Assembly (NCBI GenBank): GCA_018970725.1
Contig: JAGWVU010000031.1
Coordinates: forward strand, 1-56,458
Direction: 5' to 3'
From: Verrucomicrobiota bacterium
GTDB lineage: Bacteria > Verrucomicrobiota > Verrucomicrobiia > Verrucomicrobiales > DEV007
DNA length: 56,458 nt
How positions within the stretch are numbered: position 1 is the stretch's first letter; every line of letters begins with the position of its first letter. The notes beneath the pieces are model-generated. The model ran no database searches. It saw only the letters and a program-made list of their open reading frames with translations, and was not told the origin of the DNA. The position numbers and the translations under genes were made by a program. Positions 25,437-54,612 of the stretch are shown here, piece after piece.

Positions 25437-26522
25437 ATGTCCGACACCATCGCCACCCTCGCCCACATCGACGACTACCTGAACCTGTCGGTCGAATACG
25501 ACGCCTCCGACCTGCACCTGTGCGCCGGCACGCAACCCTCCTGGCGGCGCTACGGGGTTTTGCAGCCGATCTGGCAAAACGGCGCCATCCTCACCGCCGA
25601 GGACATGGAGAAACTGGTGAAAGGATTCATCGACGACCGGAACTTCCAACGGCTCATGGAGCGCGGGGACGCGGATTTCGCCTACGCCACGGAGACCCAC
25701 CGCTTCCGCGCCAGCGTGGTCCGGCAGCGCCTCGGTTGGACGATTTGCTGCCGGGTCATCAACACCAAGGTCCGCTCCATGGACGAACTCGGCCTGCCCT
25801 CGATGCTCAAACCACTGCTGGAATACAGCAGCGGGCTGATCCTCGTCACGGGCGGGATCGGTTCCGGAAAGTCGACCACTCTGGCGGCCATGATCAACGA
25901 GATCAACACCACGCGGAACGATCACATCATCACCCTCGAGGATCCCGTGGAATACGTGGTTGAGTCCAAGGCCTGCCACGTCAACCAACGCGAGGTCCAC
26001 CTCCACACCAACTCCTTCGCCCGCGCCCTCCGGGCCGCCTTGCGCGAGGACCCCGATGTCATCATGGTCGGGGAAATGCGCGACCTCGAGACCATCTCCC
26101 TCGCCATCACCGCCTCGGAAACGGGGCACCTCGTGATGGGCACCCTGCACACCAGTTCCGCCGCGCGGACGCTGGACCGGGTGCTCGATGTCTTCCCGGT
26201 GGATCAACGGGACCAGATCCGCCAAATGGTCAGCGAATCCCTCCGGGGCGTCATCTGCCAGCAACTCGTCCCCCGTTGCGATCAGGAGGGCCGGGTGCTG
26301 GCGCAGGAAATCCTCGTGAATTCCCCGGCCGTTTCCGCCTCCATCCGGGACGGCAAGACCTTCATGATCCCCGGCATCATGCAAACCGGACGCAGCCTCG
26401 GGATGCGTCTCATGGACGATGTTCTCTACGAGCATTTCACCTCCGGGCGGATCTCGCAAGACCAATGCCTCATGCGGGCCGTGGACCAAACCACCATGAA
26501 GCAAAAACTCGGACTCGTCTGA
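25437..26522 (+). CDS. pilT: PilT-family pilus retraction ATPase, copy 1
   Basis: 361 residues from the ATG at 25437. PilT layout: N-domain about 1-110 with DASDLHLCAGTQPSWRRYG, P-loop GGIGSGKST at 139-147 (most PilT have GPTGSGKST), Asp box LEDPVEYVV, Walker B region IMVGEMRDLETISLA and His box TGHLVMGTLHTSS. No tetracysteine zinc site, which separates it from PilB. It shares DLETISLA and nearby residues with the next gene, so the two are paralogues by duplication. PilT hydrolyses ATP to depolymerise the pilus for twitching. The variant P-loop with Gly-Ile replacing Pro-Thr keeps Gly-Lys-Ser/Thr and should still bind nucleotide. A PilU-like role is possible. Confidence 0.9.
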   Translation: MSDTIATLAHIDDYLNLSVEYDASDLHLCAGTQPSWRRYGVLQPIWQNGAILTAEDMEKLVKGFIDDRNFQRLMERGDADFAYATETHRFRASVVRQRLGWTICCRVINTKVRSMDELGLPSMLKPLLEYSSGLILVTGGIGSGKSTTLAAMINEINTTRNDHIITLEDPVEYVVESKACHVNQREVHLHTNSFARALRAALREDPDVIMVGEMRDLETISLAITASETGHLVMGTLHTSSAARTLDRVLDVFPVDQRDQIRQMVSESLRGVICQQLVPRCDQEGRVLAQEILVNSPAVSASIRDGKTFMIPGIMQTGRSLGMRLMDDVLYEHFTSGRISQDQCLMRAVDQTTMKQKLGLV

Positions 26523-26559
26523 TCCTCCCCTTCCGGCATCCCCCCAAACCTTTCACGCC

Positions 26560-27648
26560 ATGCCCATCATCGACCAGTATTTCGAGGTGCTCGTTCAAGG
26601 AAGCGGTTCCGACCTCCACCTCTCCGAAGGTCAACCTCCCAAGGCCCGCATTCACGGCTCCATCGTCCCCATCGCGGAGGGAGAACTCTCCCACGAGGCC
26701 ATCAAGCAGATCCTCGCGGAAATTTGCGATCCCAACGCCTTCGAACGCTTCCTCGAAGCCGGGGACCTCGATTTCGCCTACGAGATGGATGTGAATTCCC
26801 GTTTCCGCTGCAACTACTTCAAGCAGCAGAACGGTCTCGCTGCGGTCTTCCGTCTCATTCCCACGAAAATCGCCACCCTCGACCAGCTCGGCATTCCCAA
26901 GGCGGTGGAGGGCTTCGCCCACATGCGCAGCGGCATCGTCCTCGTCACCGGCCCGACCGGCTCTGGAAAATCGACGACCCTCGCGGCGCTGATCGATTTC
27001 ATCAACACGAACTACAACCGGCACATCGTCACCATCGAGGAGCCGATCGAGTTCGTGCACCGCAACAAACAATCCATCCTGACCCAGCGCGAGGTCGGCA
27101 TCCACTGCCCCACCTTCGCCGATGGCCTGCGCGCCTCCCTCCGGGAAGACGCGGACATCGTGCTGGTCGGGGAAATGCGGGACCTCGAAACCATCTCCCT
27201 CGCGCTCACCGCCGCGGAAACCGGACAGCTCGTCTTCGGCACCCTGCACACCAACAACGCCCGCAAGACCGTCGACCGGATCATCGACGTCTTTCCGTCC
27301 GACCAACAGGCTCAGGTCCGCACCATGCTCTCCTCCTCGCTCCGGGGCGTCGTGGCCCAGCTCCTCATGAAGCGGATCGACCAGCCGGGACGCGTCGCGG
27401 TCAACGAAATCCTCATCTCCACCCCGGCCGTCGGGGCCGTGATCCGGGAAGGTTCCACCTACAAGCTCTATGACGTCATCACCGGCGGCAAGGCCTACGG
27501 CATGCAGTTCATGGACGATGCCATCATGTCCAAGCTCATGGCCGGTCACGTGTCCCCTGTCGAGGCCTACATGAAGGCCACGGACAAGAGCCGGTTCGTC
27601 AAATTCCTTCCCCCGGAACACGCCGCTCTCGCGAACTCCGGCGGCTGA
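26560..27648 (+). CDS. pilT: PilT-family pilus retraction ATPase, copy 2
   Basis: 362 residues. N-domain with GSDLHLSEGQPPKARIHG, canonical Walker A GPTGSGKST at 131-139, Asp box IEEPIEFVH, Walker B region VLVGEMRDLETISLAL, His box TGQLVFGTLHTNNA. The C-terminal part keeps LLMKRIDQPGRVAVNEIL and AVIREGSTYKLYDVI, close to the usual PilT retraction helix region. It lies 37 bases downstream of copy 1 and is almost certainly co-transcribed. It looks the more conventional of the two, so it is probably the main PilT. Its TGA stop is directly followed by the stop of the convergent M48 gene; together they form TGATCA. Confidence 0.93.
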   Translation: MPIIDQYFEVLVQGSGSDLHLSEGQPPKARIHGSIVPIAEGELSHEAIKQILAEICDPNAFERFLEAGDLDFAYEMDVNSRFRCNYFKQQNGLAAVFRLIPTKIATLDQLGIPKAVEGFAHMRSGIVLVTGPTGSGKSTTLAALIDFINTNYNRHIVTIEEPIEFVHRNKQSILTQREVGIHCPTFADGLRASLREDADIVLVGEMRDLETISLALTAAETGQLVFGTLHTNNARKTVDRIIDVFPSDQQAQVRTMLSSSLRGVVAQLLMKRIDQPGRVAVNEILISTPAVGAVIREGSTYKLYDVITGGKAYGMQFMDDAIMSKLMAGHVSPVEAYMKATDKSRFVKFLPPEHAALANSGG

Positions 27649-43174: not shown

Positions 43175-44908
43175 ATGAACGGGGAACGGGCGGATCAGGT
43201 TTTGTTGGCGGCGGGAGACGGGATGCCCCCGCTCTTCGCCCTGCTCGCCGTGATGCTGATCTCGGTGGTGCTGGTTTCCCTCCTTTTGCTGCGGTTCCGG
43301 CAGTCGCTCCTCGTCGCCTATTTCTGCTGCGGCATCCTCATCGCCAACACCGGGATCATGAGCCTCTTCGGCGGAGGGGAATCCCATGAGGCGGTGCGGC
43401 AGATGGCGGATTTCGGGGTGGTGTTGTTGATGTTTGTCATCGGGCTGGAATTCTCCATCGGGGAACTCCGCTTCCTGAGACGTTATGCCCTGACCGGCGG
43501 CGGGTTGCAGATGGCGACCTGCCTCCTCGTGACCATCGCCCTGGCCCGCCTCGGCGGCTTGCCTTGGAACGCGTCGATCCTGCTCGCAGTGGCCCTGGCC
43601 ATGAGCTCCACCGCGATCAGCCTGAAGACGTTGCAAGACATGGAACTCTCCAACAGCCGGGGCGCGCGGTTCGCCCTCGGCGTGGCGATCCTCCAGGACC
43701 TGTTCATCATCGCCTTCCTCGTCTTGCTGCCGCTCATCCTCGGCCACGGCTCCAGCGGCACCCGCTGGACCGCGCAAATCGGATGGCTCGCCCTCCGCGG
43801 CACCGGGTTCGTCGCCCTCGCCGCGGTGAGCGCCCGGTGGATTCTCCCCGCGGTGCTCCAAGCCGTGGCCCGGACCCGCTCCCGGGAACTCTTCACCCTG
43901 GCCATGATGGGCAGCTGCCTCGGCCTGGCCTTCGTCGCCGGTTTGCTCGAGCTCAGCCTGGCCCTCGGAGCCTTCGTGGCCGGACTGGCTGTCAGCGAGA
44001 CCGTCTACAAGCACCGCATCCTCGCCGACATCCTTCCCATCAAAGATGTCTTCCTGACGCTCTTCTTCGTCTCCGTCGGACTGCTCATCGACCTCCGCGT
44101 CGCCCTCGCAAACCTCTGGCCCATCCTCGGACTCACCGTCGCTCTCACCGCCGGCAAAACCGCCACGATCACCGCCATCGCCTGGCACCTCGGCCTCGGC
44201 AACCGGCAAGCCCTTCTCGGAGCCCTGTCCCTCGCCAGTGCCGGGGAGTTCTCCCTCCTCCTCCTCCAAAACCCAGGCGTCGGCTCCCTCTGGTCGGCGG
44301 ACCTGCAGCAGACCCTGGTGGCCTCGTCCGCCCTTTCCATGGGCCTCGTCCCGGGCCTCGTCCGGCTCGCGGAACCCGTCGCGGCATGGCTCAACCACCA
44401 TCGGCTCGGGCGGTCGCAGAGGCCGCGGGGGGCGGGAGACCTTCCCGTCCGGCAGCGGGTCAAGGAACTGCGGGGGCACGTCATCATCTGCGGCCACGGC
44501 GTGGTCGGAGCCGCCCTGAACCAAACCTTGCGCGAGGCGGGCCTCCCCACCCTGGTCATTGAAATGAACGTCGATACCGTCCGCCAACTGATGCGCGAGG
44601 AACAGGCGGTCCTCTTCGCCGATGCCGCTCACGAGGAGACCTGGCACCTGGCCCGGCTCCGCGACGCCGCGCTCGTGGCCTTCACCTTCCCGGACGCGGC
44701 CACCACGGCGACGGCGTTGCATCATGTCCGGGACATCAACCCGGAGGTCAGCGTGCTGGCGCGGGCCCGGTTCGCCCCGGACCAGGCCCGTCTCGAACGG
44801 CTCGGGGTCCAGGCGGTGATTCACGATGAACGGGAAGCCGCCGCCGCCGCCGTGACGCAAACCCTGCTCCTACTGGGAAATCGCCGCCGTTCCTCCGGCC
44901 CGGCTTGA
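43175..44908 (+). CDS. KefB/KefC-like monovalent cation:proton antiporter (CPA2) with RCK domain
   Basis: 577 residues from the ATG at 43175 (an earlier ATG at 43094 is less likely because that part is not hydrophobic). About twelve membrane helices cover 15-400, with conserved CPA2 segments VVLLMFVIGLEFSIGELRF, LAVALAMSSTAISLKTLQDM, LGVAILQDLFIIAFLVLLP and ALSLASAGEFSLLLL. The C-terminal RCK/TrkA-N domain begins at about 430 with HVIICGHGVVGAALNQTLRE (GxGxxG nucleotide site) and ends near 560. Such proteins exchange potassium or sodium for protons and are gated by NAD(H) or glutathione adducts. It stands alone and reads toward the accessory strip. Confidence 0.92.
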   Translation: MNGERADQVLLAAGDGMPPLFALLAVMLISVVLVSLLLLRFRQSLLVAYFCCGILIANTGIMSLFGGGESHEAVRQMADFGVVLLMFVIGLEFSIGELRFLRRYALTGGGLQMATCLLVTIALARLGGLPWNASILLAVALAMSSTAISLKTLQDMELSNSRGARFALGVAILQDLFIIAFLVLLPLILGHGSSGTRWTAQIGWLALRGTGFVALAAVSARWILPAVLQAVARTRSRELFTLAMMGSCLGLAFVAGLLELSLALGAFVAGLAVSETVYKHRILADILPIKDVFLTLFFVSVGLLIDLRVALANLWPILGLTVALTAGKTATITAIAWHLGLGNRQALLGALSLASAGEFSLLLLQNPGVGSLWSADLQQTLVASSALSMGLVPGLVRLAEPVAAWLNHHRLGRSQRPRGAGDLPVRQRVKELRGHVIICGHGVVGAALNQTLREAGLPTLVIEMNVDTVRQLMREEQAVLFADAAHEETWHLARLRDAALVAFTFPDAATTATALHHVRDINPEVSVLARARFAPDQARLERLGVQAVIHDEREAAAAAVTQTLLLLGNRRRSSGPA

Positions 44909-45144
44909 GGACCGCGAGGGCTGCCTGGTGGGGCGGAACGAGGGGGCCGCGTAAGGGCAGCCGCCCCGAACGTCACCCGGCTTTTTCCTCTCCTTTGCGT
45001 TTCCCGGTGCCGCCTTGCTCAACTTCCAGTTTGCGCCATTTTGCTTGGATGCACCAAGCACCTCGCCTCGATCGCTCCAGAATTGAACGATGCCCGGCCC
45101 TTGAGGCCGACTCGGCGTAGGGTTGGCCTTCATGGAAAGACCGC
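44909..45144. other. Non-coding stretch after the antiporter gene
   Basis: No convincing gene. GGGGCGG (44930-44936) could pair with CCGCCCC (44961-44967) followed at some distance by a short T run, a poor terminator for the antiporter gene. A small dyad TGCTTGG / CCAAGCA lies at 45043-45061. Beyond this nothing is recognised. Confidence 0.35.
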
Positions 45145-45319
45145 ACCCCACAAGAGCGGCTCGCTGCCCTGGAAAGCTTGCGCAGCCTCATGATCGACCC
45201 CGGACCGGTTGGAACTCTACCCCGACTTCAAAGATTTCTTACTGTTGTCAGACGAGAAGAACGTTGAGTATCTGGTCGGCGGCGGTGTCAATGGGCGGGG
45301 GATGATTGAACGAAGCTGA
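45145..45319 (+). pseudogene. Remnants of a nucleotidyltransferase-type toxin-antitoxin pair
   Basis: Two short coding-like pieces follow each other. From 45145 the frame reads TPQERLAALESLRSLMIDPG, which looks like the C-terminal part of the small antitoxin-type partner. From a TTG at 45209 another frame reads ELYPDFKDFLLLSDEKNVEY and LVGGGVNG, matching the first 30 residues of MNT/AbiEii-like nucleotidyltransferases (normally ending LVVGGYAV). It then runs into unrelated sequence and stops at 45319, so the catalytic GSxxxDxD part is gone. The 3' end overlaps the antisense HicA-like gene by 32 bases, which suggests a junction created by recombination. Non-functional as it stands. Confidence 0.55.
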
Positions 45320-45482
45320 TACCAGTTCCTTTCCGGGCCAAGCGCTCGGCAATCTCACGATGCCGGGGAACCGGCTCCAGGACTCCCGTCGCCGGTTGGC
45401 GCCAGATATCATGGGAACCACCGTGACGGACGAACTCACATCCAAGAGCCTCCAGCTCGCGGATCAGATCGAGCCGTTTCAC
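45288..45482 (-). CDS. hicA: HicA-like mRNA interferase toxin
   Basis: 64 residues from a GTG at 45482 (VKRLDLIRELEALGCEFVRH as first codons). The HicA fold is recognisable: LIRELEALGCEFVRHGGSHD with the catalytic His in GGSHD, and the second strand-turn PVPRHREIAERLARK. The end (GTGISFVQSSPAH) differs from the usual LARKILRDL-type helix and may be a frame change from an older recombination, since the opposite strand here carries the end of another remnant. HicA toxins cleave mRNA and are held by HicB, but no intact HicB is adjacent. The start codon overlaps the stop of a broken upstream gene. It could be inactive. Confidence 0.6.
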   Translation of the reverse strand: MKRLDLIRELEALGCEFVRHGGSHDIWRQPATGVLEPVPRHREIAERLARKGTGISFVQSSPAH

Positions 45483-45662
45483 GCAATTTCCAGCTCACCC
45501 GAATGGTATTGATGATCCGGCAGGAGCCCCCCGGTGGAGCATTCCTTATGCAGGTCCAGGTATCCGGAACAATTTGTCCACGCCCACCTCGTCCCATGAT
45601 CCGCCGCCTGGGTGATCCGTTACAGAGCGTCCAGACACTGGTCGTCCAACCGTTGCCCGAGT
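45479..45662 (-). pseudogene. Interrupted small gene upstream of the HicA-like gene
   Basis: In one minus-strand frame the sequence reads LGQRLDDQCLDAL, a TAA at 45622-45620, then RITQAADHGTRWAWTNCSGY and LDLHKECSTGGLLPDHQYHS before GELEIA and a TGA that overlaps the HicA-like GTG start. Both sides of the TAA look coding and continuous, and the four-base junction with the next gene is the classic toxin-antitoxin arrangement. No family is recognised with confidence; it does not resemble HicB. Probably a partner gene that has lost its 5' part and gained a stop. Confidence 0.45.
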
Positions 45663-46681
45663 CACTCACATGACCGGCTTTTCTTCGCTCAATCCAATTC
45701 CGCTGAGAAGAAGTCCCGGAAGGATGAATTCCCGCCCATCATCCGTGTAGATCGAAACGCGACTCCGGCTGGGGTATTCGCGTCCGTCCGTCCGTCGTGC
45801 AAATCACGAAAGGAACAAAGGGAACCGCTGTTAGGCGATCACTCTCCCGCCATGAACCGTCGCCACCTCCGCGCCCGCTGCAACTTGGAATCCATCTGCA
45901 GCGCATCGAACCTCCTCGCTGCGGACAAAGCCCGCAAACACAAATTTTGGTAGCCCAGGGCAAAGCCGGGCACGGAGAGGGACCCAAAGCAGAGCATGTC
46001 TCTTCCCATCCGTGTCATCCCGCCCCTCCGTGTTTCATCCGTGCCCCCAAAAAGCCCTCTTCCGCGTCATCCGCCAAGGGGATCTTCCAGGGGACGGTGA
46101 AACATCGGTATGGGATGAGCCATCATGGATGATTCCCGTAAAAGCCGCTGAACACTCCGCGACGCGGCGACCTCCAGCGCGATGCCCTCCGCTTTTTTCA
46201 TCGGGACTGGGCGGAAACCAATGTTGTCCTTCTGGGAGCCAGGTCTGTCCGGACCGCCGTGAGCGGCGCGTCCGGCCCGTTGGGCCTTAGAGGGGCAAGA
46301 ACCGAAGAACTTGTGGCTGCTGGCCAGCATCTGGCACCGATGCTTCACCATCCGTGAGCCCCAACCCGGCGCCATCGGCTTTACCGGACCGGCATGCCGA
46401 TGCGTGAGATCGGTCTGCGGGTCTTGGCCTGGTAACCGTTCAGCCGGGAAGCGAACTCCGAGGGTTTGCGACGGGCCTATTGCGGATGGCCTCTTGAGGG
46501 CAGAAAGCGAAAACGACGAAAAAAAATCTCCGCTCCGCAGCACGCCGCCCCGCAACCGAATCGCCCACCGATTCCGTCCCGGACGACCGCCCGTTCCATT
46601 CACACCCGGACGGCGGTCTTCACTTGCAAGCCGCCCGATTTTCCGTATCCGGATCTCCATTCATCCGGCAATCCATCGGCG
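45663..46681. other. Long non-coding strip with short dispersed repeats
   Basis: No supported gene in about one kilobase. Repeated short strings are visible: ATCCGTG at about 45741, 46009, 46032 and 46351; a REP-like TAGCCCAGGGCAAAGCCGGG near 45951; and a C(G)AAAGGAACAAAGGGAAC string near 45808 of a sort often seen between genes in Verrucomicrobia. On the minus strand near 46160-46250 the string GSQKDNIGFRPVP resembles the end of a formylglycine-generating-enzyme-like domain, but nothing else of that family is present. A weak promoter candidate (TTGCAA at 46623, 16 bases, TATCCG) precedes the next gene. Confidence 0.4.
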
Positions 46682-48061
46682 ATGACTCCCGAAGAACCCC
46701 GCGACCAACCCAAACCGGGCGGACTGGACTTTTCCCTGCCCGAACTCCCCGGCTCCGCCCGAGCGAGGCCGTTCCCTTCGCCCCGGACCCTGCTCATCGG
46801 CATCGCGACGCTCACCCTGGTCAACCTCTGCCTGACGCTTCTCCCGGAACGCTCCCCCGCTCAGCGTGCCGGGGCGACTCCGCCCGGGCTCCAGCCCGCC
46901 GCCGACGACCTCAGGAAACTCGCCCTCAAGCTGGAGCAACAGGGCCTCACCCAATCCGCCACGGCCACGTGGATGGAGGTCCTCGAAGCCACCCGGCCCG
47001 GGGCCAAGGAAGCCGCCGCCATCTGGTATCGGATCGGCAAGCTGCACCAAGACGCCCGGAACCATGAACCGGCGCTCAACGCCTTCTACCGCGCCGAGGC
47101 CCTGGCGCCGGGTGATCCCGATCTCAGCGCCGACCTCGGGCGCCGCGTGGAGGAATGCCTTTCCGCCATGGGCCGTTTCGCCGCCCTTCGCCATGAACTC
47201 GCCGGACGCGTGGCCCTCGACCCCGCCACCGCCGCTTCCGCCGGCGCGGTGGTCGCGGAAATCGGAAAGGAAAAGATCACCGAAGCGGATCTGGACCGAA
47301 AAATCGAGGAACGGATCGAAAGCGAACTCGCCCGCGCCGGGAGCCGCCTGGAGGAACCGGAGCGCTCCCGGCAGAAGGAAGCCATGCTCGGGCAGTTCTC
47401 CGCCAAGGAGGCCCGGCTCCAATTCCTCCAACAGCTCGTGGCCGAGGAAATCCTCTACCGCAAGGCCCTGGAGATCGAACTGCCGGAAAAACCCGGGGTC
47501 CGGAGCCAACTGGAAGAGACGCGGCGCGGCTTGCTCGCCGGTCTGGTGATGCAACGCCGGGTCGAGGACTTCGCCCGCATCAGCGAGGACGAGGTCAAAG
47601 CGCGCTACGAGGCGAACAAGGAGAGCCTGCGCCTACCGGAATCCCTCCGCGTCAGCCGCGTGAGCCTGCCCGACGCCGGGGCCGCCCGGCAAAGGATCGC
47701 CCAAGGCGGCGCCGGGACCGATTGGCAGGAGATCGCGGAACCCCTCGTCCAAGGCCGGCCCGTCCCCGGTCTCAAGGCGGACGCCGCACTCGATCCCCTC
47801 TGGTCCACACCCGCCCGGGGCGTCGTGCCCGAGCCGTTCCCGGCGGAGGACGGCACCTTCCACGTCTTTCTGGTGCGGGAACGGATCGAGTCCCGCCTGC
47901 CCCCGTTCGAGGAGGTAGCGGACCAACTCGCCCGGGAAACCCGGCGCGAAAAGGAACAACGCATCCAATCGGAACTGTTGGAACAGCTGCGTCGCGAATA
48001 CGATGTGGTGCTCCATCTGGACCGTTTCGGAAAGCCCGGGCGGGAGGTGGAGCAACCGTGA
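46682..48061 (+). CDS. Membrane-anchored peptidyl-prolyl isomerase-like protein (SurA/PpiC type)
   Basis: 459 residues from the ATG at 46682. One membrane helix (TLLIGIATLTLVNLCLTLL, about 40-58) anchors the protein, TPR-like repeats follow (about 75-165; WYRIGKLHQDARNHEPALNA), then a SurA/PpiC-type chaperone domain (GAVVAEIGKEKITEADLDRK; LQQLVAEEILYRKALEIELP) and a rotamase-like end (LRVSRVSLPDAGAARQRIAQ; GTFHVFLVRERIESRLPPFE). The parvulin active-site His residues and the GGDLGW string are missing, so catalysis is doubtful and a chaperone role is more likely. It is first in the Bat operon, overlapping the lipoprotein gene by four bases. An in-frame extension upstream is not supported. Confidence 0.78.
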   Translation: MTPEEPRDQPKPGGLDFSLPELPGSARARPFPSPRTLLIGIATLTLVNLCLTLLPERSPAQRAGATPPGLQPAADDLRKLALKLEQQGLTQSATATWMEVLEATRPGAKEAAAIWYRIGKLHQDARNHEPALNAFYRAEALAPGDPDLSADLGRRVEECLSAMGRFAALRHELAGRVALDPATAASAGAVVAEIGKEKITEADLDRKIEERIESELARAGSRLEEPERSRQKEAMLGQFSAKEARLQFLQQLVAEEILYRKALEIELPEKPGVRSQLEETRRGLLAGLVMQRRVEDFARISEDEVKARYEANKESLRLPESLRVSRVSLPDAGAARQRIAQGGAGTDWQEIAEPLVQGRPVPGLKADAALDPLWSTPARGVVPEPFPAEDGTFHVFLVRERIESRLPPFEEVADQLARETRREKEQRIQSELLEQLRREYDVVLHLDRFGKPGREVEQP

Positions 48062-49107
48062 GCCGGCCCGCCCTCACATGGATGCTGGCCGCCCTGGCCC
48101 TCCTGGCGGCCCCGGGTTGCGGCGGCGGCAAAAAAGCCGCCCCCCCCCCGCCCGCTTCGCCCGGCCTCGAAAAAACCTTCGAGCGCGGCCCGGTGAAGGT
48201 CACCGTCCGGCTGGACAAAAAGGAACCGACCCTGGCCGACCGGCTGAAACTCGAATTGGAGGTGCTCAGCGAGGCCTCCGTCAAGGTGACGATGCCTCCC
48301 GCCGGAACCGAATTGAGTTCCTTCGGCGTGGTCGACTACACCACTTCCCAACCGGAACTCCGCGCGGAGGGCAGGCTGCGCCAAACCCGGACCTATGTTT
48401 TGGAGCCTTTTCTTTCGGGGAAATACGAAATCCCGCCGCTCGTTTTCACCTTCACGCGCGACGGTGAGCCGGAGCACCGGCTGGAGACCGAAGCGATCCC
48501 CATCGAGGTGCGCTCGTTGCTTCCCGAAGACGCCCGGAATCTGGATATCCACGACATCGCCGGTCCGGTGGACCTGCCCCGCCCCGCGCTCCCCTGGCCC
48601 GCGATCCTCTCCGCCGTGCTCCTCACGCTCGGTCTCGCGGCCGGCGGCTGGTGGTGGTGGCGCTTCCGTCTCCGGGACCAGCAGGCCGGCCCGCCTCCGC
48701 GCCCGGCCCACGAGATCGCCTTCGAAGCGTTGCGCGGGTTGGTCGGCGAGGATCTTCCGGGAGCGGGCCGGATCAAGGAATTTTATCAGCGCCTCTCGGC
48801 CATCTTGCGCCGCTACATCGAAGACCGGTTCGGGGTTCACGCCCCCGGCCAGACCACGGAGGAGTTCCTCTCCTGGCAATCCCGGCATGCAGAGAGCGCC
48901 TTGGACCATCGCCATCAAGCGCTCCTCACCGAATTCCTCAAACATTGTGATCTGGTGAAGTTCGCTGAATTGCAACCCTCCGAAGCGGAGATCCAAAAGA
49001 CCTTCGACGCCTGCAAGGCCTTCATTCTGGAAACGCAGGTCCAGCCGCCCCAAGGACCCCCCGCTTCCCCGCTAACCTCCACCCCGGCCACCTCCGATGC
49101 GCTTTGA
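48058..49107 (+). CDS. Lipoprotein with DUF4381-like domain, Bat operon member
   Basis: 349 residues from a GTG at 48058 that overlaps the upstream stop. Lipobox LLAAPGC at about 15-21 (lipidated Cys21), a Lys/Pro-rich spacer encoded by a C10 tract, then a BatD-like beta domain (about 35-170; FERGPVKVTVRLDKKEPTLA; LRQTRTYVLEPFLSGKYEIP). One membrane helix (WPAILSAVLLTLGLAAGGWWWW, split here as WPAILSAVLLTLGLAAGG) precedes a helical cytoplasmic tail with IKEFYQRLSAILRRYIEDRF, as in DUF4381 proteins of BatA-linked operons. Its end overlaps batA by 11 bases. A lipoprotein that also has a membrane helix is odd; the lipobox could instead serve as an ordinary signal. Confidence 0.72.
   Translation: MSRPALTWMLAALALLAAPGCGGGKKAAPPPPASPGLEKTFERGPVKVTVRLDKKEPTLADRLKLELEVLSEASVKVTMPPAGTELSSFGVVDYTTSQPELRAEGRLRQTRTYVLEPFLSGKYEIPPLVFTFTRDGEPEHRLETEAIPIEVRSLLPEDARNLDIHDIAGPVDLPRPALPWPAILSAVLLTLGLAAGGWWWWRFRLRDQQAGPPPRPAHEIAFEALRGLVGEDLPGAGRIKEFYQRLSAILRRYIEDRFGVHAPGQTTEEFLSWQSRHAESALDHRHQALLTEFLKHCDLVKFAELQPSEAEIQKTFDACKAFILETQVQPPQGPPASPLTSTPATSDAL
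48140..48149 (+). repeat. C10 homopolymer inside the lipoprotein gene
   Basis: Ten consecutive C, seven codons after the lipobox Cys, encode the Pro run AAPPPP. A short A6 run precedes it. A one-base slip would frameshift the gene before any functional domain. Confidence 0.8.
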
Positions 49108-50164
49108 ATCGCCTTGGATGCTTGTGCTCCTCCTCGGATTGCCCGCCCTCCTCTGGTGGCGGCACCGACGCATGGGACCGGGGGCGGCCATCCGCTTTTC
49201 CTGGACCCGCAACGCCGCCCGGGCCGGGGCCTCCCTCCGCCAACGGCTCGGGTTCATCCCCCAGGTGCTCCGCTTCCTCGCCCTCGGGCTCCTCGTGATC
49301 GCCCTCGCCCGGCCCCAGCAAGGCATGGAGCGGGTCCGCGAAGCCAACGAAGGCATTGCCATCGAAATGGTCCTCGACCGCTCCAGCAGCATGGCCGCGG
49401 AAATGAACTTCGAAGGGCGGCGCCTCAACCGCCTCGAGGTCGTCAAGGAAGTCTTTGCCGCCTTCGTGCTCGGCGATGGCCGGGACCTCAAGGGACGCGG
49501 AAACGACCTTGTCGGGATGATCTCCTTCGCCGGATTTCCCGAAACGGTCTGTCCGCTGACCCTCGGGCACGGCGCCCTGCCCCAGTTTCTCGAGACCGTC
49601 CGCCTCGCCTCTCCACGCAGTGAAGAGGACGGCACCGCCATCGGGGACGCCATGGCCCTCGCCGCCGCGCGCCTCAAAACCGCGGAAGACACGCTGGCGC
49701 GGCAACTGCCCGGCGCCGCCAACCGTTTCCTCATCAAGAGCAAGGTCATGATCCTCCTGACCGATGGCCAGCAGACCGCCGGCAAACGAAGCCCGGCCGA
49801 GGCCGCCAAACTCGCCGGGGAATGGGGCATCAAGGTCTACGCCATCGCCGTGACCGGTCAGGAAGAGATGCGGTCCCAGGACACCTTCTTCGGCCGTTTC
49901 CTTCAGTTCGGCTCGGCCCCGGCACCCAACACCCGGGACCTCGAGGCCATCGCCACCGGGACCGGCGGCAAGTTCTTCCTCGCCGGGGACGCCGAATCCC
50001 TCGGGGACATTTACCAGGAGATCGATTCCCTCGAACGCAGCAAGATTGAAGCCGTCCGCTTCATGGATTATCGGGAATGGTTCGCCCCCTTCGCCCTCGC
50101 CGCCCTCTGCCTCGTGGCCCTCGAGATCGCTTTGAACTGCACCCTTTTCCGCAAAATCCCATGA
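49097..50164 (+). CDS. batA: BatA-like von Willebrand factor A protein
   Basis: 355 residues. Two N-terminal membrane helices (PWMLVLLLGLPALLWW; VLRFLALGLLVIALARPQQG), a VWA domain from about residue 85 with the MIDAS motif EMVLDRSSSMAAEM, and later metal-site residues GDAMALAAARL and MILLTDGQQTAG. A C-terminal helix ends the protein (FAPFALAALCLVALEIALNC). BatA and BatB of Bacteroides and Leptospira are paired VWA membrane proteins linked to oxidative stress tolerance and envelope integrity. The MIDAS is intact (DxSxS). Overlaps the lipoprotein gene by 11 bases and batB by four. Confidence 0.9.
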   Translation: MRFESPWMLVLLLGLPALLWWRHRRMGPGAAIRFSWTRNAARAGASLRQRLGFIPQVLRFLALGLLVIALARPQQGMERVREANEGIAIEMVLDRSSSMAAEMNFEGRRLNRLEVVKEVFAAFVLGDGRDLKGRGNDLVGMISFAGFPETVCPLTLGHGALPQFLETVRLASPRSEEDGTAIGDAMALAAARLKTAEDTLARQLPGAANRFLIKSKVMILLTDGQQTAGKRSPAEAAKLAGEWGIKVYAIAVTGQEEMRSQDTFFGRFLQFGSAPAPNTRDLEAIATGTGGKFFLAGDAESLGDIYQEIDSLERSKIEAVRFMDYREWFAPFALAALCLVALEIALNCTLFRKIP

Positions 50165-51987
50165 ACGCAATCCGCTTCCAGAGCGTGGCCATGCTCCACT
50201 GGTTGTGGCTGCTCCCCCTCCTGACCGGGCTCCTCTTCTTCGCCGCCAGCCGCCGCCGCGCCGCCTTGCACACGCTGATCGAGGCCGGACTGCTGGATCG
50301 CATCCGCATCTCCATCAGCCCAGCCAAACGCCGCGCCAAGGCCATCCTCGCCCTCGCCGGTCTCGCCCTGCTCGTGACCGGCCTCGCCAGACCGGGCTGG
50401 AATCCCCGGGCGGAAACCGTCGAGAGGCGCGGCCGGGACGTCGTCTTCCTCCTCGATGTCTCCAAGAGCATGCTGGCCGCGGACCTCAGCCCGAACCGCA
50501 TGGAACGCGCCAAACTCGCCATCCAGGATGCGGTCGACCGACTCGCCGGGGACCGGGTCGGCCTCGTGGTGTTCGCCGGGACCTCCGTCGTCAAGTGCCC
50601 GCTGACCCTCGATTACGGTTTCTTCCGCCTCATGCTCGAGGATATCTCTACCGACAGCCTATCCCGCGGCGGCACCCTCATCGGCGATGGCATCCGCAAG
50701 GTGCTGGAGGATGTCTTCGACGACGAGGAACGCCAATACAAGGACATCGTCCTCATCACGGACGGGGAGGACCACGACAGCTTCCCCGTGGAAGCCGCCA
50801 AAACCGCCGGGAAACGCGGGGTCCGGCTCATCGCGATCGGCCTCGGGGACGAGGACCAGGGCCGCCGCATCCCCGTCACCGATGCCCAGGGCCGCCAGAC
50901 CTTCCTCACCCATGAAGGCCGCGAGGTCTGGACCAAGCTGGACGCCCACACCCTGCGCGAAATGGTCAACGCCACGCCGGGCGGCAAATACCTCAACGTA
51001 GCCACCGGAACGATCGATCTCGGTCAGGTCTACGTCGAACTCATCGACTCCGCGGAAAAGAAGGATCTCGAATCCGCCACCATCAAGCGCTACGACGAAA
51101 AGTTCCAGATCTTCCTCACCCTTGCCTTGATCCTGCTCGCGGTCGATGCCGGACTCACCGACCGGCGCCGTCTCCCGCCCGCCCTTGCTTTGTTCACGTG
51201 CCTTTTCCTCTTCCCCGCCGAATCCCGCGCGGTGGCCGCCGGGACCTTGGTCCGTCAAGGGAACGAGGCCTTTGCCCGGGGCGATTGGAAAACGGCGCGG
51301 GAACGCTTCGCGGAAGCTTCCGTGACCGAACCCGGTTCCGCCGGCATCTCGTTCAACCTCGGCGCCGTTTCCTACCGTGAGGAAGATTACGCCCGGGCTC
51401 TCGAGCATTTCTCCGAGGCCGCGCTCAACACCAAGGACTCTCTCTTTGCCGCCCGGGCCCAATATAACATGGGCAATTGTGCCTTCCGTCAGGCACAACG
51501 CCAGAAGGACGGGGATCTGGAACAGGCCATCAAGGAATGCCAGGCCAGCGTCTCCCACTATCAGGACGCCCTTCGCCTCGACCCCCGCCACCAGCAGGCC
51601 TCCGAAAACATCGAGGTCGTCAGGCTTTTCCTCAAAAACTTGCTCGATGAACAAAAACGTCGTCAGGAAGAACAGGAGCAAAAAGACGATCAATCCCAAA
51701 AAGACGATCAATCCCAAAAAGACGATCAATCCCAAAAAGACGATCAATCCCAAAAAGGCGATCAATCCCAAAAAGACGATCCGTCCCAAAAAAAGACCGG
51801 ATCCGCCGACAAAGCCAGCCCCGGCAAAGACCCTCAACCGCAGTCACAGCCGCAGCCCGAAGCCCCTTCCGAATCCTCCACACCGGTCAACGAACAGGCC
51901 CGGGAGATCCTTGACGAGGAAAAAGAGAACCAGCGCCGCCGGCGGCCCGTTGCCGGTGGAACCCGGCCGGTCGACAAGGATTGGTGA
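50161..51987 (+). CDS. batB: BatB/BatC-like fusion: VWA domain plus TPR
   Basis: 608 residues from the ATG at 50161 (ATGA junction with batA). Membrane helices near 15-35 and 60-75 frame a VWA domain with MIDAS VVFLLDVSKSMLAADLSP, FAGTSVVKCPLTLDYGFF and VLITDGEDHDSFP. A third helix at about 345-385 (FLTLALILLAVDAGLTD; LALFTCLFLFPAESRA) behaves like the start of a second protein. TPR repeats follow (VRQGNEAFARGDWKTARERF; YNMGNCAFRQAQRQKDGDLE), as in BatC. The C-terminus is a charged repeat QKDDQS (six copies) and a Pro/Glu-rich tail. Bacteroides encode BatB and BatC separately, so this looks like their fusion. Confidence 0.86.
   Translation: MNAIRFQSVAMLHWLWLLPLLTGLLFFAASRRRAALHTLIEAGLLDRIRISISPAKRRAKAILALAGLALLVTGLARPGWNPRAETVERRGRDVVFLLDVSKSMLAADLSPNRMERAKLAIQDAVDRLAGDRVGLVVFAGTSVVKCPLTLDYGFFRLMLEDISTDSLSRGGTLIGDGIRKVLEDVFDDEERQYKDIVLITDGEDHDSFPVEAAKTAGKRGVRLIAIGLGDEDQGRRIPVTDAQGRQTFLTHEGREVWTKLDAHTLREMVNATPGGKYLNVATGTIDLGQVYVELIDSAEKKDLESATIKRYDEKFQIFLTLALILLAVDAGLTDRRRLPPALALFTCLFLFPAESRAVAAGTLVRQGNEAFARGDWKTARERFAEASVTEPGSAGISFNLGAVSYREEDYARALEHFSEAALNTKDSLFAARAQYNMGNCAFRQAQRQKDGDLEQAIKECQASVSHYQDALRLDPRHQQASENIEVVRLFLKNLLDEQKRRQEEQEQKDDQSQKDDQSQKDDQSQKDDQSQKGDQSQKDDPSQKKTGSADKASPGKDPQPQSQPQPEAPSESSTPVNEQAREILDEEKENQRRRRPVAGGTRPVDKDW
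51680..51787 (+). repeat. Six-copy 18-base tandem repeat in batB
   Basis: Unit AAAAAGACGATCAATCCC, four identical copies from 51680, one with a single change (GACGAT to GGCGAT at 51752) and a last with CAATCCC to CCGTCCC. Each unit encodes QKDDQS. Near-perfect copies point to recent slippage and variable length between strains. Confidence 0.95.
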
Positions 51988-52008
51988 CCCAGCCCCCGCT
52001 CCCCTCAC

Positions 52009-54612
52009 ATGACCCGCGTTTCCTTCCCCTGGTATCTCCCCGCCCTGATCCTCGGTGCCTTCGCCGCCACGGCGCCCGGTCAGGAACCGCTCGGCGTCGA
52101 AGCTGTGGTCAGCAGTGACTCGGTGACCTTGGGCGAACCGTTCGACTTCCAGCTCCAGGTCTCCGGCTCTGAGGCCCCCTCCCCGCCCGACCTGACCGGC
52201 CTTGCGGATTTCACCGTGACGCCCATGGGCAACGGGACGAACTCCAGCAGCTCGGTGACCATCATCAACGGCCAAGTCACCCAAAACGTGCGCAAGGGTT
52301 TCCTCTTCAACTACCAACTGGTGGCCAGAAAGGCCGGGTCCCTCACCATCCCGCCCCTCACCGTCAAGGACGGTCCCAACAGCGCCACCACCCGCCCACT
52401 CGTGATCCGCGTCGGTGCCATGCAGGAAAATGATCACTACAAGCTCCGGGTGTCGCTCCCCGGGACCAGCGCCTGGGTCGGTGAGGCCCTCCACCTCAGG
52501 CTGACTTTCTATTACGATGCCAACCTCGAACAACCCCGCCTCAATCTCCCCGTGGCGAACGATCCCTCCTTCCAGGTCCATGAAGCGGACGTGCCGATCA
52601 CCAACCAAAACGAGACCCTCGACGGCCGCACTTTCCAAACGATGAAGCTCCTCCGCATCCTCGTCCCCCGCCGCGCCGGCTCCTTCCACCTCGAACCCGC
52701 CACCTTCATTTTCCGGGGCGTGGACGGTTACGAGATAAGGGACGATCCTTTCTTCGGCCGCCAAAGGGTCCCCCGCGTCCGCAATTTCGTCGTGCCTTCC
52801 AATGCCCTCGACCTCACCGTGCGCGAACTCCCCGCGGACGGCAAACCGGCCAACTTCGCCGGGCACGTCGGCCGCTTCAGCCTCAGCACCTCCGCCAACC
52901 CCCTCAAGGTGAATGTCGGGGATCCCCTCAACCTCGTCGTCAAGGTCTCCGCCCCCACCTTCCTCAATGACTTCGAGCTGCCGCCGCTCCAGCGGCAAAC
53001 CGCTCTCGCCAAAGACTTCCGCCTCCCCGCGGAACCCTCCCCGGGTCAGGTCGGGGACGATTCCATCACCTTCACCTACACCATCCGCGTCGCCCGGGAA
53101 GGCCTCCGGGAGATTCCCCCCCTCGAACTCCCCTTCTTCGATCCCGACGCCGCCGCCTACCGCGTCGCCCGTTCCGAACCGATCCCCATCGAGGTCGTCG
53201 AAACGCGCGTCGTCACCGCCCGGGACGCCGAAGGCACGGAACCCGTCACCCCCCGCACCGCGGAGGTGGAGGCCTGGTCCCTCGGCATCGCCCACAACTA
53301 CGAAGATCCGGACGCCCTCCGTTCCGAGCGCTTCTCCCCGGCCCTTTGGTTCCGCTCCGCTGCCTTCTGGACCCTCCTTCTCCTCCCCGCAGCCCTCCAC
53401 GCCCTCCTCCGCTTCCTCGTGGGCCGCCAGCGCACCTTGCACGCCGACCCGGGCGGAGCGCGCCAGGCCCGGGCCGCCCGGAACTTCCACCTCCTCATCG
53501 ACTCCGCCACCTCCACGGACCGGGTGCTCGAAGCCTTCCGCACCTACCTCGGCGACCGCTTGCGCCTCTCCGCCGGCGCCCTCACCGCCAACGATCTCCG
53601 CGCCCCCCTGCAGCGCGCCGGCGTGCCCGGGGAAACCATCGCCGCCGCCGAGGATCTCTTCCGGCGCTGCGAGGCCAGCCGCTATTCCGGCGGCCAGGCC
53701 GGGGAAGCCGGAGATCTCGCCGCAGCCTGCAGGGACGTGGTCGCCGGCATCGAGTCCGGGTCCCGCACGCCGGGAGGGACTCTCCTCCGCCGCCTCCCCA
53801 TCCCCGGCCGTTTCCTCCCGCTCCTCACCGCTTTGCTCGCTTTTTGCGGAATCTCCGGAGCCGCGCTGTCCCCTGCGGACCAAGAGCGCATTTTCCACGA
53901 GGCCAATGCCCTCTTCCGCCAAGCCAACGAACAGTCCGCCACCCAACCGGACGCCGCCGGAGAGACCTACGCCAAGGCCATCCTGCACTTCGAACAACTC
54001 ATCCGCGAAGGCGCCATCGAAAACGGAAAACTCTACTACAACCTCGGCAACGCCTACTTCCGCACCCGCGATCCGGGCCGCGCCATTCTCAACTACCGCA
54101 GGGCCGCCGATTTGCGACCGCACGATCCTAACCTCGCCCAGAACCTCGCCTTCGCCCGCTCCCGCCGCGTCGACCGCATCGAGGCGACCGCGAAACGCCG
54201 GGTCGCGGAGATCCTTTTCTTCTGGCACCATGACCTTCCCCCCGCCCTCAAAGCCACCCTCTTCGGCTGGGCCACGGTTCTGGCCTGGGCGGCCGCGACG
54301 GCCCGCCTCTTCCGCTCAACCGGCTGGCTGCTCTGGACCACGCTCGGCAGCGCCCTCGTGGCCGGACTGATGCTCCTCTCCCTCGCCATCGACGCCCGGT
54401 CCGCCCGGGAAATCCGCGAGGGCGTCCTCGTGGCCCCGGAGGTCGTGGCCCGCAAGGGCGACAGCGATTCCTACGAACCGAGCTTCAAGGAACCACTCCA
54501 CGCCGGCACCGAAATCCGCATCCGCGAGACCCGCGCCGGCTGGATTCTCGCCGAACTCGGGGACGGCCGGACCTGCTGGCTGCCCGCAAAAGCGGTGGAA
54601 GCAATCTGGTGA
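52009..54612 (+). CDS. batD: BatD/BatE-like fusion: oxygen-tolerance beta domains, TPR and SH3
   Basis: 867 residues. Signal peptide (YLPALILGAFAATAPGQ). Two or three BatD beta domains cover about 25-410 (EAVVSSDSVTLGEPFDFQLQ; AWVGEALHLRLTFYYDANLE; FELPPLQRQTALAKDFRLPA). A membrane helix at about 450 (AAFWTLLLLPAALHALLRFL) and a helical cytoplasmic stretch with TSTDRVLEAFRTYLGDRLRL follow. Around 590 a new hydrophobic segment (FLPLLTALLAFCGISGAAL) resembles a second signal sequence and leads into BatE: TPR (KLYYNLGNAYFRTRDPGRAI), two membrane helices and a C-terminal SH3-like domain (GTEIRIRETRAGWILAELGD then RTCWLPAKAVEAIW). This is therefore probably BatD fused to BatE. It starts 21 bases after batB and ends the operon. 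Confidence 0.86.
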   Translation: MTRVSFPWYLPALILGAFAATAPGQEPLGVEAVVSSDSVTLGEPFDFQLQVSGSEAPSPPDLTGLADFTVTPMGNGTNSSSSVTIINGQVTQNVRKGFLFNYQLVARKAGSLTIPPLTVKDGPNSATTRPLVIRVGAMQENDHYKLRVSLPGTSAWVGEALHLRLTFYYDANLEQPRLNLPVANDPSFQVHEADVPITNQNETLDGRTFQTMKLLRILVPRRAGSFHLEPATFIFRGVDGYEIRDDPFFGRQRVPRVRNFVVPSNALDLTVRELPADGKPANFAGHVGRFSLSTSANPLKVNVGDPLNLVVKVSAPTFLNDFELPPLQRQTALAKDFRLPAEPSPGQVGDDSITFTYTIRVAREGLREIPPLELPFFDPDAAAYRVARSEPIPIEVVETRVVTARDAEGTEPVTPRTAEVEAWSLGIAHNYEDPDALRSERFSPALWFRSAAFWTLLLLPAALHALLRFLVGRQRTLHADPGGARQARAARNFHLLIDSATSTDRVLEAFRTYLGDRLRLSAGALTANDLRAPLQRAGVPGETIAAAEDLFRRCEASRYSGGQAGEAGDLAAACRDVVAGIESGSRTPGGTLLRRLPIPGRFLPLLTALLAFCGISGAALSPADQERIFHEANALFRQANEQSATQPDAAGETYAKAILHFEQLIREGAIENGKLYYNLGNAYFRTRDPGRAILNYRRAADLRPHDPNLAQNLAFARSRRVDRIEATAKRRVAEILFFWHHDLPPALKATLFGWATVLAWAAATARLFRSTGWLLWTTLGSALVAGLMLLSLAIDARSAREIREGVLVAPEVVARKGDSDSYEPSFKEPLHAGTEIRIRETRAGWILAELGDGRTCWLPAKAVEAIW

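Follow-up and report, generated by a model that had tools for sequence, protein, structure and literature searches.

The window (the whole 56,458-nucleotide stretch analysed, contig C101 of genome G000) carries a compact operon of Bat genes on its forward strand. Most likely it is the downstream section of a Bat operon of nine genes, divided between DUF58 and the chaperone gene by the time of the common ancestor of the genus. The upstream part, a MoxR–DUF58 pair, would be located on a second contig of the same genome (C37). Because one promoter- or operator-like element is common to the upstream regions of both parts, the two are probably still expressed together.

Gene organisation of the window operon

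The operon consists of five closely packed genes (46682-54612, + strand), with spacings of -4, -11, -4 and +21 nt between consecutive genes. Every gene has at least one Pfam domain above the cut-off. The genes, with these domains, and the two copies of the element are listed below.

46621..46647, + strand, promoter- or operator-like element CACTTGCAAG-N8-TTTTCCGTA, ending 34 nt before the chaperone start codon
46682-48061, + strand, TPR/SurA-PpiC-like chaperone gene (Rotamase_2)
48058-49107, + strand, putative lipoprotein gene with a GTG start (DUF4381, BatD)
49097 (or 49118)-50164, + strand, BatA, with an N-terminal BatA domain and a VWA domain (BatA, VWA, VWA_2)
50161-51987, + strand, BatB/BatC fusion, with the BatB VWA domain, the BatC TPR and a QKDD repeat tail (VWA_2, VWA, TPR_2)
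52009-54612, + strand, BatD/BatE fusion, with three BatD-type stretches, a TPR-like BatE and, by eye, a C-terminal SH3-like tail (BatD)
L027 7535-7509, - strand, matching element before the MoxR gene of C37, ending 34 nt before the MoxR start codon

In the third gene, both the BatA N-terminal domain (PF07584) and the VWA domain (PF00092) exceed the Pfam cut-off, and the metal-ion-dependent adhesion site (MIDAS) motif DxSxS is located at residue 94. The BatB part of the fourth gene has its MIDAS motif at residue 99 of the 608-residue frame; VWA_2 scores 74.6 bits, with TPR_2 above cut-off in the same protein. The NCBIfam models BatA, BatB and BatC_Lepto match these two genes, all under their own cut-offs. 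BatD (PF13584) scores 103 bits in the fifth gene, with three stretches above cut-off in the genome search. The BatE part reaches 25.2 bits for TPR (under the Pfam cut-off of 27.8) and has no SH3 match; this C-terminal part is 42% identical to a separate BatE-like gene in a Desulfobacterales locus (L066).

Coordinates, gaps and Pfam domains agree with an earlier sequence-only reading of the window, which had placed five overlapping or closely spaced genes in this order. Two further genomes of the genus have orthologous five-gene blocks with 66–84% protein identity, so the arrangement is not due to chance. The same reading had found no MoxR or DUF58 gene beside the operon, and all 10 AAA_3 (MoxR) and all 10 DUF58 matches in the genome lie on contigs other than C101. 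The MoxR–DUF58 pair expected directly upstream in a typical Bat operon sits on C37 instead.

We do not regard the fusions as new; BatB/BatC is already described as fused in Leptospira biflexa (in the accessible text of PMC3557215) and BatD+TPR+SH3 as BB0170 of Borrelia (likewise PMC5700661). BatB and BatC are separate genes in G095, a genome of another genus of the family, and in L066 and the Krumholzibacteriota locus L068, as are BatD and BatE. The BatD/BatE fusion is also found in a second Bat operon of G000 on contig C49 (L028 798-3446), yet the two genes are separate in G095, L066 and L068; perhaps these were two independent events in one lineage.

The nine-gene operon in other lineages

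The full operon has the gene order MoxR–DUF58–chaperone–lipoprotein (BatD-type and DUF4381)–BatA–BatB–BatC–BatD–BatE. A scan of named bacterial genomes for the chaperone family gave six loci: Verrucomicrobiota G027, G153 and G095, one Desulfobacterales and two Krumholzibacteriota metagenome-assembled genomes (MAGs). Read gene by gene, L066 and L068 each contain one nine-gene run, with only 7 bp (L066) and 5 bp (L068) between DUF58 and the first possible chaperone start.

In a sample of Desulfobacterota, the phylum of L066, the chaperone profile matches in 280 of 395 genomes (E ≤ 1e-10), and these matches are probably mostly generic PpiC proteins. Thirty loci were returned with 1.5 kb of flank on each side. 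DUF58 adjoins the chaperone in 15 (L069-L079, L082, L085, L086 and L090), accompanied in 14 by the lipoprotein; the remaining 15 have neither DUF58 nor lipoprotein within these flanks. In the phylum of the window, 10 of 387 genomes match the profile at ≤ 1e-22, namely the window's own and nine from two other families. DUF58 is directly beside the chaperone in eight of these nine, and the ninth locus (L102) ends there.

Larger stretches were mapped at 20 loci from three phyla, comprising 17 of these 24 (12 of the 15 Desulfobacterota loci, L066 being one of the 15 but left out of the 12, and five of the nine from the window's phylum) and the three non-Verrucomicrobiota loci from the scan of named genomes. 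All nine genes are present in order in 10 of the 20. Nine have fewer of the genes but keep the order, some being cut by contig ends and others having BatC to BatE undetected at 1e-6. The last locus has MoxR–DUF58–chaperone alone (G288, L114 8686-11961); neither a lipoprotein gene nor BatA was detected in the 8.7 kb that follow, and the operon may have broken here independently. The chaperone and the lipoprotein are thus old parts of this Bat subtype, conserved beside Bat genes across phyla, as their assignment to the Bat system in the sequence-only reading had implied.

The probable split in the genus and the kinship of the halves

The chaperone is found in four of the 74 genomes of the window's family: G000, G027 and G153, which form one genus, and G095. 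The operon is broken between DUF58 and the chaperone in all three genomes of the genus. G095 has it in three pieces, MoxR–DUF58, chaperone–lipoprotein–BatA and BatB–BatC–BatD–BatE; both of its Bat operon types are seemingly broken between BatA and BatB (L045/L047 and L188/L189). A further genome, G149 (70% complete), has the MoxR–DUF58 pair and no chaperone match, which may reflect its incompleteness. The G153 locus is from record QQNE01000007.1 and the G027 locus from CAMCXS010000033.1 (L063). The latter record is titled Akkermansia muciniphila; the genome search places the window's genus outside the family of the small-genome group f2/g14, and the record is probably a mislabelled MAG.

On C37 the MoxR–DUF58 pair stands on its own, with a convergent unrelated gene opposite. 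Its MoxR is 77% and 70% identical to those of L066 and L068, and its DUF58 65% and 64%; the window BatB is 65% identical to the BatB of both nine-gene runs. Compared with the pairs of closer intact operons, the identities are 68–79% (MoxR) and 58–69% (DUF58), and compared with the closest paralogues encoded in G000 57–61% and 42–45%. Across the other four g1/g12 genomes that were searched (G095 and G149 represent g12), the C37 MoxR is kept at 82–97% and the DUF58 at 73–91%. Among the matches listed in a 112-genome sample of the order, a DUF58 at least 70% identical to that of C37 is found only in G000, G027 and G095 (next full-length match 50%), and a BatB at least 70% identical to that of the window in the same three only (next BatB 44%).

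Trees were built from 40 rows for DUF58 and 39 for BatB; row L047 of the BatB tree is a BatA, from a contig without BatB (end branch 4.36), and is to be disregarded. In both trees one group (support 96/88 and 99/100) unites the half in question, the C37 DUF58 or the window BatB, with the C49 type and those chaperone-bearing operons that are closer; the Bat operon of contig C80 falls outside it. Within that group, a clade of the genus and g12 has support of 99/97 (DUF58) and 100/98 (BatB); the forks adjoining it are weak (81–85 bootstrap). Judged by these identities and trees, the C37 pair is of the same operon family as the window operon.

The common upstream element

The 27-bp element was found by aligning the upstream regions of both halves in G000, G027 and G153. 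The two copies in G000 are identical in 23 of 27 bases, including all 19 fixed positions. As their flanks differ, the element is not simply a recent duplicate. It looks like a promoter or operator; its CGTA is presumably akin to the -10 boxes of extracytoplasmic function (ECF) sigma factors, and its TTGCAA, we assume, is also promoter-like. In the sister genomes, the element before the chaperone lies within the 73–74 bp that separate a KefB-like gene from the chaperone. The same interval in the window measures 1,773 bp (44909-46681), against 73 and 74 bp in the sisters, and contains a HicA-like toxin frame (45288-45482, - strand); it is perhaps due to an insertion. Rfam gave no matches in window positions 44800-46750.

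Other Bat loci of the genome

One of the 10 DUF58 matches in G000 is the BatA of C80. The search for moxR and DUF58 in the rest of the genome, which the sequence-only reading had proposed, led to the case that this reading had named as its refutation, a standard Bat operon elsewhere. Contig C49 has a second Bat operon, MoxR–DUF58–DUF4381-like–BatA–BatB/C–BatD/E, complete by homology. Its DUF4381 match (19.5 bits) and its SH3 are under cut-off, and it has no TPR match. Contig C80 has DUF58–DUF4381-like–BatA–BatB/C–BatD–BatE without MoxR, the DUF4381-like gene being without a Pfam match and named by blast and position. Contig C47 carries a solitary Bat-type MoxR.

The C47 MoxR (L036 7963-8949) and the C80 operon from DUF58 to BatE (L030 2056-8915) look like a second split Bat system. 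This MoxR has counterparts 91–95% identical in both sister genomes, and no Bat gene was found across the 9–12 kb fetched. The regions upstream of the C47 MoxR and the C80 DUF58 have no 16-mer with at least 13 matches in common. Elsewhere in the window, two adjacent frames in tandem at 25437-27648 encode what we take, from the sequence, to be PilT-like ATPases.

Alternative explanations

Several points weigh against a split operon under common control. Before MoxR the element is weaker in the sisters, with 3 mismatches in G027 and 4 in G153; since 4 mismatches are at chance level genome-wide, the G153 copy counts only by its position. The element was noticed post hoc and its pattern derived from the sites themselves, and therefore the perfect match before the chaperone gene (0 mismatches in the window, G027 and G153) holds by construction. 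What does count in favour of the element is that no third copy with fewer than 4 mismatches (spacers 6–11) was found in 1,612,888 bases of G000, which are about one third of the genome and were chosen partly around Bat genes. At 4 mismatches and spacer 8 these bases have five other sites, and five random sequences of equal length and dinucleotide make-up, pooled, have eight sites with 4 mismatches and one with 3. The element was not found at ≤ 4 mismatches at the g12 loci (G095 and G149), nor in 10 further loci; the 20 chaperone-bearing operon loci of other lineages gave one match only, with 4 mismatches, within the operon and on the opposite strand (L112). In the DUF58 tree the divergent Desulfobacterota operons (chaperone identity 26–32%) are placed among other Bat operons, and so the chaperone-bearing operons are not one clade. 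Finally, a bat deletion in L. biflexa is reported without an oxidative-stress phenotype in the available portion of PMC3557215.

Alternatively, the window operon would be driven by the MoxR–DUF58 of the complete C49 operon or by the solitary C47 MoxR, either of which could serve its proteins too, with the C37 pair an unrelated leftover and the halves uncoupled. The many paralogues make this conceivable: the C49 MoxR is 61% identical to that of C37, and no paralogue is closer to the window BatB than that of C49 (43%). Against this, the C37 pair is conserved in the g1/g12 genomes, the C37 and window loci share the upstream element, and the trees of the two halves agree. We regard this explanation as unlikely. 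Less likely still is the self-contained envelope complex of the sequence-only reading, independent of MoxR, in which the chaperone and the lipoprotein would replace the ATPase. The contig has neither MoxR nor DUF58, and the operon has tight gene overlaps and a promoter-like element of its own, but that element is shared with the conserved C37 pair, which both sequence identity and the trees assign to this operon family. In intact operons the chaperone and the lipoprotein stand beside MoxR–DUF58, so they did not replace it; recruitment of the chaperone in place of MoxR was rejected for the same reason.

The split could also be an artefact of assembly or binning, and the four genomes concerned are indeed fragmented (108 to about 490 contigs), with G027, G153 and G095 being MAG records. 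The identical break nevertheless recurs in all three genomes of the genus, KefB is upstream of the chaperone in each of them (G000, G027 and G153), and a separate copy of the element precedes each half. The cuts lie within contigs in G000, G027 and G095; in G000 and G027 both halves are well inside contigs among other genes (the C37 pair at 49.6–51.5 kb of 108 kb). In G153 a contig end lies about 1 kb beyond the pair, which is no proof either way. We give an artefact hardly any credence, and the split of a nine-gene operon is retained as the likely explanation.

The chaperone and the probable lipoprotein

The chaperone has an N-terminal helix (residues 36–54), which would tether it to the inner membrane. 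A profile search of the PDB has PEB4 (5.8e-17) and HP0175 at the top. The structure model has a mean pLDDT of 75 and a pTM of 0.46. Its fold matches are led by a YrvJ-YacD model, PEB4, SurA, LIC12922 and PrsA, and TPR proteins are matched too. PEB4, SurA and PrsA are matched with probabilities of 0.99–1.00, but the query TM-scores are low (0.15–0.27), so the domains are recognised and their arrangement is not. From these matches the protein is predicted to be a membrane-anchored TPR and SurA-like protein with a degenerate parvulin (PpiC) domain.

An intact parvulin active site has a histidine in the first strand (as in AHIL), a GG..W segment and a histidine in the last strand. The window protein has SRVS at the AHIL position, the middle segment is gone, and the last-strand histidine (FHVFLV) is retained. 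The chaperones of L117-L123 have neither histidine and those of L108-L114 both. The domain is excised in L066, L067, L068, L115, L116 and L124, and we therefore rejected the idea that it is essential. We also considered that it might be an insertion; given the canonical-looking copies in L108-L114, loss is simpler. Because the domain is degenerate in the genus and cut out in relatives, prolyl isomerisation looks dispensable in this Bat setting, the TPR/SurA-like core being retained. Of the isomerase-like chaperone of the sequence-only reading, the SurA/PpiC-like character therefore stands and the isomerase activity is doubtful.

The description of the second gene as a BatD-like lipoprotein was correct in the BatD-type beta domain but incomplete. 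The protein consists of a putative lipobox, the beta domain (residues about 37–152), a transmembrane helix (about 180–200) and a cytoplasmic helical DUF4381 domain. By eye, the lipobox is weak in the window (APGC) and clear in three orthologues (LAGC, LGGC and VSSC), and the product is probably acylated. Homologues occupy the same position in other Bat operons of the order, the window version being larger. The fold search with the lipoprotein model gave no match at E ≤ 0.001, the best rows being Ig-like beta domains, and the PDB profile search gave two rows only (E 0.41 and 0.55). Judged by titles and abstract openings, the literature searched had nothing relevant on DUF4381.

Relation to known systems and a possible mechanism

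The window type resembles the Bat operons of Bacteroides fragilis and spirochaetes, which, as far as the accessible text goes, have BatA and BatB VWA proteins with MIDAS, TPR proteins, BatD, and MoxR and DUF58 partners (PMC3557215, PMC5700661). It differs in the TPR/SurA-like chaperone between DUF58 and the DUF4381 gene, in the DUF4381 partner being a probable lipoprotein with a BatD-type domain and, in the window's genus, in the separate MoxR–DUF58 locus. The SurA, PEB4 and PrsA (PpiC) chaperones share the SurA-like core and the position of the parvulin domain; unlike these, the window chaperone has an N-terminal membrane anchor, a TPR domain, lost parvulin motifs and a place in a Bat operon. 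In the literature searched, which had most subscription papers outside it and others in part, no SurA/PpiC-like gene in a Bat operon and no split Bat operon was described.

The function of the Bat proteins is described as elusive (PMC3557215, in extract), and their role in oxidative stress is contested. According to the portions available, MoxR ATPases work with VWA partners, NorQ being proposed to twist and stretch the linker of NorD (PMC13036017); BB0173, a BatA-type protein, resides in the inner membrane, and experiment places its VWA domain in the periplasm (PMC5700661); and the MoxR of Riemerella influences bat operon transcription and stress survival (PMC11834572). We infer a machine for envelope assembly that is powered by MoxR. 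On the cytoplasmic side, this ATPase would work via DUF58, which has a VWA domain and is its partner, and via the DUF4381 domain, the cytoplasmic end of the lipoprotein. This end would transmit movement across the inner membrane to a periplasmic frame, in which BatD/E is combined with the lipoprotein beta domain and the BatA and BatB VWA domains. Pulling powered by ATP where DUF58 and DUF4381 lie would reshape the VWA parts in the periplasm, as proposed for NorQ and NorD. The membrane-tethered chaperone may feed, hold or protect unfolded or assembling envelope clients, and the outcome would be the assembly or repair of envelope proteins under stress. NorQ–NorD shares only the working principle of a MoxR ATPase and a VWA partner (PMC13036017, in part); the Bat system has no nitric oxide reductase (NOR) target and its VWA parts are probably on both sides of the membrane, so the comparison is an analogy only.

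The conserved SurA-like chaperone and the membrane-bridging DUF4381 lipoprotein point to envelope folding or assembly rather than direct detoxification. Annotated Bat operons without MoxR should be treated with caution, as they may simply be split. That motor and frame are naturally separate and have a control-like element in common offers a route to the control circuit. We see an even chance that a chaperone-equipped Bat machine, present in at least three phyla, has here had its ATPase and membrane halves uncoupled, the two resulting loci making up a very small regulon of their own via one element. If so, the motor would be tunable separately from, or jointly with, the envelope frame.

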